Source: Sphingomonas sp. 3P27F8 (GTDB lineage Bacteria > Pseudomonadota > Alphaproteobacteria > Sphingomonadales > Sphingomonadaceae). From it: 64,000 nt of DNA. The translations under genes and the position numbers were made by a program. Where the stretch lies: positions 124,001 through 188,000 of the forward strand of contig NZ_SCNL01000003.1 of assembly GCF_005502745.1 (NCBI RefSeq). The letters run 5' to 3'. This document shows positions 6,277-38,683 of this stretch, one piece after another; position 1 is the first letter of the stretch, and every line of letters begins with the position of its first letter. The notes beneath the pieces are model-generated. The model saw only the letters and a list, made by a program, of their open reading frames with translations, made no database searches and had not been told where the DNA came from.

Positions 6277-7452
6277 ATGACGCCAGCCGCGCGCATTCAG
6301 GCGGCGATCGAGGTGCTGGATCTCGTGCTTGCGGCCGCCCGCGAGGGCGGTGCGGCGGCCGACACGATCGTCCAGCGCTATTTCTCCACCCGCCGCTACG
6401 CCGGCTCGAAGGATCGCCGGGCGGTGCGTGAGCTTGTGTTCGCGGCGATCCGGGCTTGCGGAGAAATGCCTGTGTCGGGCCGCGCGGCGATGCTGCTGTT
6501 GACGCGCGGGGACGAGAATCTCGTGCGCGGTTTCGACGGGTCTGTGCATGGGCCTGCACCGATCGATCCCGAGGAACCTGTCGCGACCGGTGGTACGGCT
6601 CCGGCCTGGCTTGCGGAGCGGATGCGGCAGTCAGGGCTCGACGAGGAGGAATTGGCCGCGCTGGTTGAGCGCGCGCCCCTCGACGTCCGCGTGAATACTT
6701 TGATTGCGGACGCCGAGGTGATGGCGAGCGAAATTCCGGGCGCCGCGCCTATAGCCGGCGTCCCTGGTGGGCTGCGTTTGCCCGCCGGTACCAATGTGGA
6801 GAGTTATGGCGGCCGGCTGGAGGTGCAAGACGCGGGCAGCCAGATCGTTGCCGGCGCAGCGCGGGTCGAACCGGGCATGACCGTGCTCGACCTTTGCGCT
6901 GGCGCGGGGGGCAAGACTCTCACGCTGGCGGCCGCGATGCATAATGAGGGGCGAATCGTTGCGGCGGACACCGATCGATCCAGGCTCGGCCGCCTTTCTC
7001 CGCGCGCCGTGCGGGCAGGCGTCACGATCGCGGAAACGGTGCTCCTCAATCCCGACCATGAACTGGCGGCACTGCAAGGCTTGCGAACTGCCGCGGATGT
7101 CGTGCTTATCGATGCGCCTTGCTCCGGAACTGGAACATGGCGGCGGAATCCTGAATCGAGATGGCGGATCACACCCGCAAGACTGGGGAGGTTGGTTGAA
7201 ACCCAGCAGCGCCTGCTCGGCATAGGCGCCGCCCTGACGCGGCCGGGCGGCGCGCTGATCTATATTGTCTGCTCGCTGGTCGATGAGGAGGGGGCGGGGC
7301 AGGTGATGCCGTTTCTCGCGACGCACCCCGGCTGGACAGCTGAACCACCTACATTGGCACTTGGTCGTCGTCACCACGCCGGTGTCAGGCTCAGCCCCGC
7401 GCACGATGGGACAGACGGCTTTTTTGTCGCACGGCTGATCGCCCCATGCTAA
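6277..7452 (+). CDS. rsmB: RsmB/NOP-family RNA (cytosine-5) methyltransferase
   Basis: SAM-dependent RNA m5C methyltransferase of 391 residues. An N-terminal NusB-like helical region (about residues 1-130) is followed by a Rossmann domain with SAM motif [12 protein letters not shown] (residues 203-214), motif [12 protein letters not shown] (Cys282) and motif [13 protein letters not shown] (Cys332). Two conserved cysteines are diagnostic of the NOP2/Sun/RsmB family: one is the nucleophile, the other assists product release. Likely target is 16S rRNA C967, by analogy with E. coli RsmB; the exact site cannot be read from sequence. It starts 15 bases after guaB and is probably cotranscribed. Confidence 0.9.
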
Positions 7453-34724: not shown

Positions 34725-35501
34725 TCAGGGCTGAACAATGATTGATGCATCGCCATAGCCGCGTCGCGCGGCGTCGTCACGCGCGCGCTGCGCTGCCTCC
34801 GCCGTGTCGAACGGACCAAGGCGGACCCGATGCCGCCCGTCATGCAGATCGGCACTGCCACGAAGCCGCTCCGCGAGCGACCTTGCCCGCGATCCGCTAA
34901 CAAACGAAGCGACTTGCACGACATAATTGCCATGCGGTTGAAGCTTGATTGACGGTTGAGGCGTGGCTTGAAGCGCGATCGCCATCGCGCCATCTCGCGC
35001 GGGCAGGCGGCGTCGCAGGCTGGCGAGCATCTCAGGCGAGGCCACTTCCCTCGCCCCCGCCGCGTCACCGCGCGCCAGCGCCAGGCGATCCGGCTCGACA
35101 GCCGCGACGCTGCGGACCCGAACCGCCGCCTTCGCCCGCCGGCCGCTCCCGAGCAACGCCGCCGCACCGCGCGACAGATCGATCAGGCGATCGCGCTGGC
35201 CAGGGCCGCGATCGTTGATAAGCACCAATATCGTGCGCCCGGTATCGAGCGCGGTCACCTCTACATAGGATCCCAGTGGCAGCGTCCTGTGCGCGGCGGT
35301 GATGGCGGACGGGCGAAATGGCGCGCCCGATGCGGTTTTGGCGCCGGCCAGTTCCTCGCCATACCAGGTCGCGTAGCCAACTTCGTCGTAGCGCGCCGGC
35401 ACCGCGCTCGACGCCGGTGACGGTGGCGCGTCGCGCGCCTGGCATACTGCCGCGATCGGCAGCGCCAGAAGCCAGAGATTAGCGCTCAACCGCATCGGCA
35501 A
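34725..35501 (-). CDS. rlpA: RlpA-type septal lytic transglycosylase with SPOR domain
   Basis: Envelope protein of 258 residues. A signal peptide (about 1-22) precedes a double-psi beta-barrel domain (about 42-130) with GYATWYGEELAGAKTASG and VLINDRGPGQRDRLIDLS, the RlpA signature, and a C-terminal SPOR domain (about 185-258) that binds denuded glycan at the division site. A Cys near residue 21 (AAVC) is not a good lipobox, so lipidation is uncertain. It overlaps the upstream lytic transglycosylase gene by 23 bases. Confidence 0.9.
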   Translation of the reverse strand: MPMRLSANLWLLALPIAAVCQARDAPPSPASSAVPARYDEVGYATWYGEELAGAKTASGAPFRPSAITAAHRTLPLGSYVEVTALDTGRTILVLINDRGPGQRDRLIDLSRGAAALLGSGRRAKAAVRVRSVAAVEPDRLALARGDAAGAREVASPEMLASLRRRLPARDGAMAIALQATPQPSIKLQPHGNYVVQVASFVSGSRARSLAERLRGSADLHDGRHRVRLGPFDTAEAAQRARDDAARRGYGDASIIVQP

Positions 35502-36522
35502 GCAGCCCGACCGAAAGCGCGTAGAAGTTCGAGCAATTGTAATCGAGGATCACGCGGTAATTTCCGGTAAGCAGATAGGCGGTCTTGCCCGGCCCATCCG
35601 GCTCGAGGAGCGTGGCGAGCACGCCATCACCCGGCCAGGGGCGATCCTGCGGCACGAGGCCGAGCGCGCGCCATTCCGCCATGGTGCGCCAGCCGCTGTG
35701 CCGCTCGAACACGCGGGGGCATCTCGGGGAGATCAGACGATTAACCTGTCCGGCGCGATCATAGGTTGCGGGCACGCTGACGGCGATGCCCCACGGTTGC
35801 CCCGGGCGCCAGCCGGCGTTGACGAAATAATTGCCGATCGAGGCAAGTGTGTCGGCAGAACTGTTCCAGATGTCGATCCTGCCGTCGCCATCGCCGTCTC
35901 GCGCAAGCCGGAGGTAAATCGACGGCAGAAACTGCGGATTGCCCGTCGCGCCGGCCCAGCTCCCCTTGAGTTGCTCACGTGGCACGCCGCGATCGAGCAT
36001 CTTCAACGCAGCGATGAACTCGCCCGCGAAGAGGTTACGACGGCGCCCCTCATAGGCAAGGGTCGCAAGGCTGCGCAGCAGATCGAAATTTCCCGTGTAG
36101 CTGCCGTAATTCGTTTCATGACCCCATATCGCGACCATGATCGATTCGGGCACACCGGTCTGCGCCTCAACCGACGCGAGCCTGCTTCGGTTGGCGAGAT
36201 ACGTGGCGCGCCCACGCGTTATACGTGCAGTATCGACGTGCTGCGCACGATAGGGCGCGAACATCGAGACCGGCGCGTTGGGAGACCCGCCAGGTTGCTG
36301 GCGATCAAGATCGACCACACGCTGATTGAACGTGAGCGTAGGCATCACGGCATCCAGCGTTGACACTTTCACGCCGGCGGCGAGCGCCTGAGTGCGCAAT
36401 GTCGGCAGATAGGCTTGGAATCCCGCTTCATCCTGCGCGATCGCTGGCGTTGCGGCCGCAGCGAGAACGACCGCGGCGAGCACGGAAACGGCGCGAATGA
36501 TTATCCCCCTCATACGCGCCAT
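35479..36522 (-). CDS. MltB-type lytic murein transglycosylase
   Basis: Periplasmic enzyme cleaving the glycan strand with formation of 1,6-anhydro ends. Starting at 36522 the 347-residue product has a signal peptide (residues 1-30, ending in ATPAIAQ), the SLT2/MltB catalytic domain with IWGHETNYGSYTGNFD (Glu136 is the expected catalytic acid), and PQFLPSIYLRLARDGDGDGR. An upstream start would add 24 residues with no signal features. It heads a packed operon that continues through rlpA, the carboxypeptidase gene, tmk, holB and metG. Confidence 0.9.
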   Translation of the reverse strand: MARMRGIIIRAVSVLAAVVLAAAATPAIAQDEAGFQAYLPTLRTQALAAGVKVSTLDAVMPTLTFNQRVVDLDRQQPGGSPNAPVSMFAPYRAQHVDTARITRGRATYLANRSRLASVEAQTGVPESIMVAIWGHETNYGSYTGNFDLLRSLATLAYEGRRRNLFAGEFIAALKMLDRGVPREQLKGSWAGATGNPQFLPSIYLRLARDGDGDGRIDIWNSSADTLASIGNYFVNAGWRPGQPWGIAVSVPATYDRAGQVNRLISPRCPRVFERHSGWRTMAEWRALGLVPQDRPWPGDGVLATLLEPDGPGKTAYLLTGNYRVILDYNCSNFYALSVGLLADAVER

Positions 36523-36612
36523 CTTGCACGTCGGAAGACGATTATGAAACAGCCAGTCATCGTCGGGCTTGCACATACCGTCGCAGCACGCCACAGCGCG
36601 CGAACTGCTCGC

Positions 36613-36652
36613 GGAGAGGTGGCCGAGTGGTTTGAGGCAGCGGTCTTGAAAA
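36613..36652 (+). pseudogene. 5' half of a disrupted tRNA-Ser(UGA)
   Basis: GGAGAGG acceptor strand, TG, D-arm GCCGAGTGGTTTGAGGC, then GCGGT and the anticodon loop CTTGAAA. After AAAC the sequence no longer matches a tRNA: the expected ACCGC is replaced by ACTAC and there is no variable or T arm. The missing 3' half is found about 800 bases downstream at 37448-37501, whose CCTCTCC pairs perfectly with this GGAGAGG. Confidence 0.8.
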
Positions 36653-36776
36653 CTACTGGAGATTGCGACCAGTGCGCGGAAATAGGAGTTTTGTTACAAG
36701 GGGTTAGCGTCAGTCCGATTCGCCAGGTGTAATTACCCATAAGCCTGTCGTAAGCTGCGAGCCCCCGAAATGGCAT

Positions 36777-36866
36777 GGAAGAGTGTCCGAGTGGTTTAAG
36801 GAACTGGTCTTGAAAACCAGCGACGGGGCAACCCGTCCGTGGGTTCGAATCCCACCTCTTCCGCCA
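36777..36866 (+). tRNA. tRNA-Ser(UGA), complete
   Basis: A 90-base tRNA with GGAAGAG/CTCTTCC acceptor stem, discriminator G and encoded CCA. The anticodon stem CTGGT/ACCAG encloses CTTGAAA, giving anticodon UGA. A long class II variable arm (CGACGGGGCAACCCGTCC) and T-arm GTGGGTTCGAATCCCAC are intact. The acceptor and anticodon stems differ from the disrupted copy around it, so it is not a simple duplicate. Confidence 0.97.
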
Positions 36867-36869
36867 ATT

Positions 36870-37214
36870 TCAAAACTGAGCCTTCTGCTTCCGAAGATCC
36901 CAAGCGGATATTCCAACGACGGCAAGAACGGCGATCCCGATCACCACGTCAACCGCGCCGGCACCGATAGCAACGGCCACGACCAATCTAACTGCCATGA
37001 TTCCAGCAATTACCATCGCGATCGTGGGCGCTCGCGCATTGCCAGAGGCAATCGCTCCAATCAGCAAGAGACCCAAGAAGATGTTCCAGCCCGCAACTGC
37101 GCCGTTCCCGTGATCAAATATGAACGGGATTGCGAGCAATATTAGGAGGCCAGCTGAGGCAAACGAGAGCCACTTGCCTATTCCAGTCCATTCGATGCTG
37201 CTTTCTGTCGTCAT
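36870..37214 (-). CDS. Small four-helix membrane protein, unknown function
   Basis: From the ATG at 37214 the product has 114 residues and about four hydrophobic helices: WLSFASAGLLILLAIPFIF, GWNIFLGLLLIGAIAS, APTIAMVIAGIMAVRLVVAV and VVIGIAVLAVVGISAW. A short charged tail (DLRKQKAQF) ends three bases from the tRNA-Ser 3' end on the opposite strand. No family is recognised. Ribosome-binding sites are weak for this start and for one 15 bases upstream. It lies within the segment that splits the older tRNA-Ser gene. Confidence 0.6.
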   Translation of the reverse strand: MTTESSIEWTGIGKWLSFASAGLLILLAIPFIFDHGNGAVAGWNIFLGLLLIGAIASGNARAPTIAMVIAGIMAVRLVVAVAIGAGAVDVVIGIAVLAVVGISAWDLRKQKAQF

Positions 37215-37346
37215 AGACCGAACGTGCATGAAATGAATCGTCAAAGCAACGCCTCGCACCATACGCAGGCTCGAGGCGTTGCACAACGTAAGGACAGAAG
37301 GAGTGTCGCCTATCCCCACTGCTGCGGATGTTCGATAACTTACGAC

Positions 37347-37435
37347 AACCTACATAAAACGTCCAAGCGGCAAAATGCGCTTTCTGCCTGTGTATCGCTT
37401 GCTTATGAAAACCTGCGTAAACATACACAAACGTC
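37347..37435. repeat. Imperfect direct repeats near the right junction of the island
   Basis: AACCTACATAAA (37347-37358) recurs as AACCTGCGTAAA (37410-37421), and AAACGTC follows each copy at 37357-37363 and 37429-37435. They lie in an unusually AT-rich stretch just before the CTTGAAA junction. Their position resembles integrase arm-binding sites of integrative elements; that interpretation is tentative. Confidence 0.35.
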
Positions 37436-37447
37436 GTTTACACTAAA

Positions 37448-37501
37448 CTTGAAACCGCCGTAGGTTCACGCTTACCGTGGGTTCGAATCCCATCCTCTCC
37501 G
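37448..37501 (+). pseudogene. 3' half of the disrupted tRNA-Ser(UGA)
   Basis: Begins with anticodon loop CTTGAAA and CCGCC (one A fewer than expected), followed by a variable arm, T-arm GTGGGTTCGAATCCCAT and the acceptor strand CCTCTCC plus G. The acceptor strand is the exact complement of GGAGAGG at 36613. The T-stem closes with a G-T pair and the terminal CCA is now CTA, signs of decay. The VWA gene stop codon lies four bases further on. Confidence 0.8.
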
Positions 37502-37504
37502 CTA

Positions 37505-38683
37505 TCATCTTTTACGCGACAGTTCGCGCATCGCATCGTCCAGCCCGCCGAGCGTCAGCGGAAACATGCGGTCGTTCATCAATTCCCGAATGATCTTCGT
37601 GGACTGCGAATAGCCCCACTGACCTTGGGCGACCGGGTTCAGCCATACAGCGGCCGGATAGGTCGTGGCCAGGCGATGCATCCACACCGCGCCAGATTCC
37701 TCGTTGAAATGCTCCACAGACCCGCCCGGATGCGTGATCTCATACGGGCTCATTGCCGCGTCGCCCACGAAGATGAGCTTATAATCGTGCGGAAATTTAT
37801 GAAGCACGTCCCAGGTCGGCGTGCGTTCCGAAAAGCGGCGACGGTTGTCTTTCCACACGCCCTCATAAGGGCAGTTGTGAAAGTAGAAGAACTCAAGGTT
37901 CTTGAACTCGGTCGTGGCGGCGGAGAACAGTTCCTCGCACAGCTTGATGAACGGATCCATCGAGCCGCCGACATCCAGAAACAGCAACAATTTCACGGCA
38001 TTGCGCCGTTCGGCACGCATATGGACGTCAAGCCAGCCTTGTCGCGCAGTGCCGTCGATCGTCGCATCGATGTCCAGTTCGTCCGCGGCACCTTCGCGTG
38101 CGAACTTGCGCAGGCGGCGCAGCGCGATCTTGATGTTGCGCGTACCGAGCTCACGGGTGCTGTCGAGGTTCTTGAACTCGCGCTGATCCCATACTTGCAG
38201 CGCACGCTTCTGCTTGCTCTCTCCACCGATCCGCACGCCTTCGGGATTATAGCCCGAGTTGCCGTAAGGCGATGTGCCGCCGGTGCCCACCCACTTGCTA
38301 CCACCCTCGTGCCGCTTCTGCTGCTCTTCCAGACGCTTCTTGAGTGTCTCCATGATCTCGTCCCAGGAGCCGAGCGACTTTATCGCCTCCATCTCCTCCG
38401 CGGTGAGATATTTCTCGGCGACGGCCTTCAGCCAGTCCTCGGGAATTTCAGCGCCGGGCTGGGCGAAGCTGGTTTCAATGCCCTTGAATACCTTGGCGAA
38501 GACCTGGTCGAAGCGATCGAGCAGCCCCTCGTCCTTCACATAGACCGCCCTGCTCAAATAGTAGAAATCCTCCGGCGTCCGTTCGATCACATCCTTTTCG
38601 AGCGCTTCGAGCAGCAGCAAATGCTCTTTCATGCTTGCCGGAATCCCGGCGCTGCGCAGTTCATCAAGAAAGTTCAGGAACAT
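37505..38683 (-). CDS. VWA-domain protein, CoxE-like
   Basis: A 392-residue cytosolic protein with a C-terminal von Willebrand A domain of the CoxE-like group. The metal-site motif is LLFLDVGGSMDPFI, that is DxGxS where the canonical MIDAS is DxSxS; this variant is usual in this bacterial subgroup as far as I recall. The N-terminal helical region includes MKEHLLLLEAL, and a Lys/Gln-rich basic linker lies mid-protein. Such proteins normally act with a MoxR-type AAA+ ATPase to insert cofactors or assemble complexes; no such ATPase gene is adjacent. Confidence 0.85.
   Translation of the reverse strand: MFLNFLDELRSAGIPASMKEHLLLLEALEKDVIERTPEDFYYLSRAVYVKDEGLLDRFDQVFAKVFKGIETSFAQPGAEIPEDWLKAVAEKYLTAEEMEAIKSLGSWDEIMETLKKRLEEQQKRHEGGSKWVGTGGTSPYGNSGYNPEGVRIGGESKQKRALQVWDQREFKNLDSTRELGTRNIKIALRRLRKFAREGAADELDIDATIDGTARQGWLDVHMRAERRNAVKLLLFLDVGGSMDPFIKLCEELFSAATTEFKNLEFFYFHNCPYEGVWKDNRRRFSERTPTWDVLHKFPHDYKLIFVGDAAMSPYEITHPGGSVEHFNEESGAVWMHRLATTYPAAVWLNPVAQGQWGYSQSTKIIRELMNDRMFPLTLGGLDDAMRELSRKR

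Follow-up and report, generated by a model that had tools for sequence, protein, structure and literature searches.

The gap between mltB and a VWA/CoxE-like gene in this genome holds the relic of a small Sphingomonadaceae integrative element that uses tRNA replacement, a reading to which we give a probability of about nine in ten. The window, i.e. the whole 64,000-nucleotide stretch analysed, is G000:C33:124001-188000, where G000 is the source genome, a 43-contig draft. In the window, a complete tRNA-Ser(UGA) stands in this gap between the 5' and the 3' half of a tRNA-Ser gene, which lie 796 bp apart; the three have the same orientation, on the plus strand (Table 1). The split gene, the short core, the lack of rebuilding, the sole same-anticodon tRNA found, the integrase-bearing relatives and the two joined element segments are all read directly from the DNA.

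Table 1. Features of the mltB-VWA locus in the window (positions are those of the window)
Feature	Position	Strand	Remarks
mltB (lytic transglycosylase)	35479..36594	-	Host flank; PF13406, E=7e-91; also the neighbour at many relatives' sites
Host tRNA-Ser(UGA) 5' half, GGAGAGG...CTTGAAA, attL side	36613..36651	+	Intact gene in G049, G195, G048
Left recombination core CTTGAAA (anticodon loop)	36645..36651	+	Junction sequence
Left arm of element (presumed attP arm)	36652..36776	+	Common to other elements
Complete element tRNA-Ser(UGA)	36777..36866	+	ARAGORN; Rfam 59.3 bits; only Ser-UGA found in the draft genome
149-aa ORF, possible cargo	36870..37319	-	Hydrophobic by eye; largest ORF in the relic
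Piece of internal module, left flank of deletion	37241..37336		71-77% to G284, G269, G119, G271, G115
Right element end (arm beside lost integrase)	37333..37447		78% to the G269 element over its last 115 bp
Host tRNA-Ser(UGA) 3' half with right core copy, degenerate, attR side	37448..37504	+	CTTGAAA...CCTCTCCGCTA
VWA/CoxE-like gene	37505..38683	-	Host flank; PF05762

A sequence-only reading of this DNA had reported two halves of one tRNA-Ser(UGA) gene sharing the loop CTTGAAA, and both are present where it had placed them. Its suggestion to compare the syntenic gap in relatives proved informative: in G049, G195 and G048, an intact GGAGAGG...CCTCTCC tRNA-Ser(UGA) lies between mltB and the VWA gene without any insert. 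Since these genomes hold an uninterrupted gene between the same flanks, both window halves belong to one gene. When joined, the window halves differ from the intact G049 gene by six substitutions and one lost base over 90 positions. The degeneration described earlier for the 3' half (a lost A, C>T in the T-stem, and CCA>CTA) is real in this comparison, and an A>G change in the D-loop of the 5' half, absent from the earlier list, is to be added. That the event is not recent is likewise supported. The insert has a G+C content of ∼0.51-0.56; that of the mltB side (35400-36599) is 0.61-0.68, and that of the VWA side is 0.55-0.64. It might be argued that an intact gene is flanked by chance, either by two tRNA-Ser pseudogenes unrelated to each other or by the remains of a decayed tandem array, as the three stretches are similar and lie in the same orientation. 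However, the two halves are broken at one and the same loop, integrase-bearing elements occupy this break at other loci, and the empty sites refute this explanation, which we find scarcely conceivable.

The mltB-VWA gap is variable in other respects. In G157 and in a MAG locus (L011), an intact tRNA-Ser(UGA) is followed by an unrelated insert, in which no orphan tRNA half was seen in either case. L011 and L095 have an unrelated insert, ∼0.9 and ∼0.7 kb, after the intact host tRNA.

How the host gene was broken is indicated by G115, the closest by VWA protein (98%) among the genomes searched. In G115 (L092/L130), a tyrosine integrase (PF00589 and PF13356) adjoins the 3' half at exactly the same core, in agreement with the earlier proposal of integration in the anticodon loop of the tyrosine-recombinase kind. 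On another contig of G115, the host 5' half is followed by the genome's own complete tRNA-Ser(UGA); the G115 element is incomplete. Larger integrase-bearing islands at this core, which the sequence-only reading had thought worth searching for, exist in G115 and at four further Ser sites of the genus. Its claim that the host gene was not restored also stands, as the window 5' half runs into element sequence directly after the core, while the complete tRNA-Ser(UGA) inside the insert had escaped it.

The integrase subfamily was found at 15 loci in the 295 genus genomes at ≥45% identity, and 14 of these loci were read. The target 3' half belongs to tRNA-Ser(UGA) at six of them, tRNA-Lys(CTT) at five, tRNA-Pro(GGG) at two and tRNA-Arg(ACG) at one. 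One of the Ser elements, in G245, has an intact tRNA together with an identical orphan 3' half, and appears to rebuild its target canonically. Six of the eight non-Ser sites have an intact tRNA of the target isotype within the stretch fetched; at L202 (G175) and L206 (G001), the integrase adjoins a tRNA-Lys(CTT) 3' half, and no tRNA was called in the 20 kb fetched, which cover one end only. It seems that one integrase subfamily spans restoring and replacing elements, as is also described for actinophages (PMC10865867).

That such integrase relatives seem to restore, with several tRNA-Lys, -Pro and -Arg sites looking like G245, would favour a canonical tRNA island in the window too, in which a 3' half borne by the attP rebuilds the target and the intact tRNA is the rebuilt gene. 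However, the intact tRNA starts 125 bp beyond the core, and it has a different acceptor stem and 22 of 90 positions that differ from the host gene of G049. Moreover, a spacing of 123-146 bp between loop and tRNA, in two size classes, holds at all 15 genus sites. The canonical island is refuted by the attL sequence, and we give it next to no credence.

The insert itself is built of element segments. Insert positions 5-221 are the left end including the tRNA (81-88% to G284, G269, G263, G273 and G119), positions 590-685 are a module that is internal to other elements, and positions 682-796 correspond to the right end of the G269 element; the right ends of the other elements compared gave no match to that of the relic. 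The joint lies at ∼37333-37336, between the two element segments. The earlier estimate of a ∼0.8-kb island is correct in size, and both this size and the absent integrase are best explained by one internal deletion, of which the island would be the remnant. The 149-aa ORF gave no Pfam family above cut-off.

We propose that a tyrosine integrase recombined the anticodon loop of the tRNA-Ser(UGA) gene with an element-borne core of 7-9 bp (CTTGAAA, with AC in addition here). Because the attP has no tRNA 3' half, the host gene was left in two pieces, and the cell would owe its survival to the complete tRNA-Ser(UGA) supplied by the element, which lies 125 bp inside its left end in the direction of the host gene. 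A later internal deletion took out the integrase and the remainder, and the element is therefore unable to leave unaided. The host halves are mutating, and the element tRNA has become the sole Ser-UGA tRNA of the host. The parent element was presumably mobile. The exact attP pattern had no match in viral contigs, and no free or circular form was seen. Among phage and plasmid records, none spans 80% of the left end (219 bp), and the best 15 of 157 and the best 15 of 76 matches correspond to its tRNA part.

The dependence of the host on the element tRNA is suggested by the tRNA content of the genome. In G000, there are 44 tRNA matches, ten of which span at least 81 positions; the other serine tRNAs among those ten have anticodons GGA, GCT and CGA, although another Ser-UGA gene might lie in a gap of this 43-contig assembly. 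In each of the 14 split genomes, a loose Ser-UGA pattern matched the split 5' half, the element tRNA and nothing else, except that G269 has a second element site and G232 a decayed copy; the backward control of this pattern gave one match in G000 and none in 14 other genomes. UCA codons are in use, with 51 among the 16401 codons of 38 long ORFs of the window. The window element tRNA is identical over 90/90 nt to the element tRNAs of G232, G244, G271, G361 and G416, the last two of which belong to other genera. A scan of 36480-36900 for promoter-like sites found none, with 0.3 expected by chance. All 15 genus sites have the element tRNA downstream of the host 5' half and in its orientation, and read-through from the promoter of the host tRNA may express it; the tRNA of phage Fionnbharth is described as having its own promoter (PMC10865867, in the portion available). 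The element tRNA would be transcribed, charged and essential.

The decayed copy in G232 (L212, G232:C1:5036000-5050000, 6661-6928) is an element-type tRNA-Ser(UGA) located ∼100 bp after an intact tRNA-Pro(GGG); it looks as though a related element once used the tRNA-Pro(GGG) gene too.

To delimit the distribution, a 5'-half pattern with up to two mismatches was matched in 255 of 295 genus genomes, mostly in whole genes, and genomes with at least two matches each, together with those from an additional search, made up 16 candidates. The split-plus-replacement layout was read at at least 15 sites in at least 14 of the 295 genomes (G000, G105, G115, G116, G119, G169, G232, G238, G244, G263, G269 with two sites, G271, G273 and G284), 14 being a lower bound as more decayed sites would escape. 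The two G269 sites may be two strains. G168 also has two pattern matches, and reading its junctions gave no split-plus-replacement site. Across 397 family genomes, an exact two-part pattern matched seven, namely G000 and six of 386 genomes from other genera, and all seven read as 5' half, arm and tRNA. In G416, G543 and G566, the 3' half and an integrase are also present; a search for the 3' half that allowed three mismatches found none in G343, G361 or G493.

On a tree of 60 MltB fragments (359 columns), made from the loci fetched rather than from a full sample, the 19 split loci imply 15 state changes, of which well-supported branches require at least 11; when three states are distinguished, there are 20 changes, six of these between the two native types; as MltB adjoins the site and may itself have recombined, and the row of G493 is very long, these changes are a guide and not a count of insertion events. 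Clustering of the split loci did not exceed that of shuffled labels, as 133 of 500 shuffles were as low.

The genus sites form a series of decay in which the tRNA is spared over the rest of the element. ARAGORN calls a tRNA-Ser(UGA) at 15/15 sites. An integrase was found at five of them (G169, G232, G269 C1, G119 and G115), and both halves at seven: these five, with G115 on two contigs, and two relics, namely the window (0.80 kb) and G284 (1.68 kb). At the other eight sites, the 17-34 kb fetched yielded no integrase, and a search allowing up to three mismatches yielded no 3' half; their right end may be unassembled or degenerate, above all at G269 C6, where the contig ends ∼18 kb on. The first T-stem pair of the G269 C6 element tRNA is mismatched, as read by eye, and this tRNA may be decaying.

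Three sites suggest what may follow a takeover. In G119 (L200, 3187-14046), the gene that was split is an element-type tRNA, and the 9.3-kb element has a complete tRNA 124 bp inside it; at 1.5 kb beyond the 3' half of that element, there is another orphan 3' half, which is of the original GGAGAGG type. Upstream, a stub of GGAGAG joined to AAAGCTGTTTGGAG was read by eye as an eroded outer 5' half, its alignment score being 9 against a shuffle maximum of 12. The locus reads as two successive replacements, one apparently nested in the other, in which the younger element would supply a third tRNA-Ser(UGA).

In G047 (L219), the tRNA looks native, and between it and a host flank shared with G244 lies GGTGAGATAGCCGAGTGG, which we interpret as an eroded host 5' half (score 12, the best of 100 shuffles being 10). 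In addition, CCGCTGCATCGGTGT matches the end of the G244 element arm at 13/15 positions, and G033, the sister of G047 on the MltB tree, has an intact host gene. It seems that G047 nearly erased its element yet kept the element tRNA. Against the generality of this case, no trace of a 5' half exceeded the shuffles at seven other GTGTCC-type loci beside mltB. The idea that the GGAAGAG/GTGTCC tRNA type is a sign of the element everywhere was ruled out, as 13 of 14 scanned GTGTCC-type loci, chosen as lacking an obvious element, had no such trace above shuffles; the type is native to certain lineages, or too old for its origin to be told.

The opposite course is indicated by G068, whose genome is 82% complete: its locus (L280, G068:C27, 2300-3260) combines a split 5' half and a dead-looking element tRNA with an intact host-type tRNA in a duplicated host flank. 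This apparent reversal suggests that the takeover is not always final.

The complete elements of the genus measure 8.15 (G269), 9.27 (G119), 9.92 (G169) and 12.58 kb (G232), and all four have the integrase at the right end (phrog_1). Replication proteins are represented by AAA_25 in G232 (with a Prim-Pol match below cut-off), by DUF3987 in G269 and G119, and by primase-like PHROGs in G169, and an excisionase/AlpA-like HTH protein (HTH_17/phrog_66) is encoded in G169, G119 and G269. Among the 40 ORFs of the four elements, which partly cover small and antisense ORFs, PHROGs families of integration, replication, regulation, moron-type and unknown function were found, and no virion family. Some copies have defence-like cargo: a fused AriAB (PARIS) directly after the element tRNA in G169 (L195, 3844-5478; PADLOC E=6e-132), caspase-like (7e-8) and TIR-effector-like (4e-8) proteins in G232, and a weaker PD-T7-3-like match (2e-7) in G119. 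Such cargo would fit a tRNA that is kept to help translation or to resist tRNA-cutting defences and that replaces the host gene by chance, and phage tRNAs are thought to serve several roles, as far as the consulted portion of PMC10865867 goes. However, the tRNA shares its anticodon with the split gene at the 15 genus sites, where it also adjoins the junction and outlasts the rest of the element. Replacement accounts for a tRNA kept in relics without element genes, and we consider retention for another reason improbable.

In their gene content, with phrog_1 integrases, HTH_17/phrog_66 regulators and AAA_25/DUF3987 primase-like proteins, the elements resemble P4-like and PICI-like phage satellites, although we do not claim membership. 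Those satellites have an integrase, an AlpA-like regulator and a primase/helicase, and lack a full set of virion genes.

In their mode of integration, the elements work like the tRNA-dependent lysogeny of actinobacteriophages such as Fionnbharth, LeBron and Gaia, in which, according to the available part of the report by Guerrero-Bustamante & Hatfull 2024 (PMC10865867), a tyrosine integrase uses a short core in a tRNA gene, the target is not rebuilt, the phage brings a tRNA of the same isotype, and integration without the incoming tRNA is lethal. The core is given there as 8-17 bp, compared with 7-9 bp read from both junctions here. The actinobacteriophages are temperate phages with Lys, Ile and Leu targets, and their case is shown by experiment, whereas the present elements, known from sequence, are of 8-13 kb, have no recognised virion families, target Ser-UGA, and leave tRNA-keeping relics and an apparent nested replacement. 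As no virion family was found in the four complete elements, we do not file them as phage lysogeny.

Closer in phylogeny are the prophages of Sinorhizobium meliloti that resemble Mesorhizobium phage vB_MloP_Lo5R7ANS, where two of 88 tRNA-integrated phage-related sequences break tRNA-Leu(UAG) in its centre and bring a replacement, also in the Alphaproteobacteria (PMC11476347); these are prophages with another target, and relics are not described in the part of that report available to us. The phiLM21-like prophages of S. meliloti, in contrast, are described as rebuilding their targets (PMC12429752, in part). Likewise, the canonical tRNA-gene islands treated by Islander involve a tyrosine recombinase at a tRNA gene, with the target restored there and broken here (PMC4383910, in the portion consulted). 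In Lactobacillus johnsonii prophage Lj965, the tRNA is not rebuilt and the cognate tRNA is on the prophage (as cited in PMC10865867, in the available part, where relics are not mentioned). The mechanism of tRNA replacement is already known, also in Alphaproteobacteria. Among the open-licence PMC papers listed, we found no report of satellite-sized carriers, tRNA-only relics or nested replacement, and recognised none of such elements in Sphingomonas.

Genes for tRNA are usually treated as conserved and vertically inherited. We lean, by a little, towards the view that small elements offer a standing route for the repeated replacement of an essential tRNA gene in Sphingomonadaceae, leading to host dependence, decay around the tRNA, later re-splitting as in G119, and domesticated, native-looking genes as in G047 and perhaps in other GTGTCC-type species. 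An element that breaks a tRNA gene and pays with its own copy cannot be fully lost, which amounts to an addiction that needs no toxin, and the series of relics is a sequence record of its end state. These findings bear on the call, made in the part of PMC10865867 available to us, to seek the phenomenon beyond actinobacteriophages, and the elements are a potential test system in environmental bacteria.
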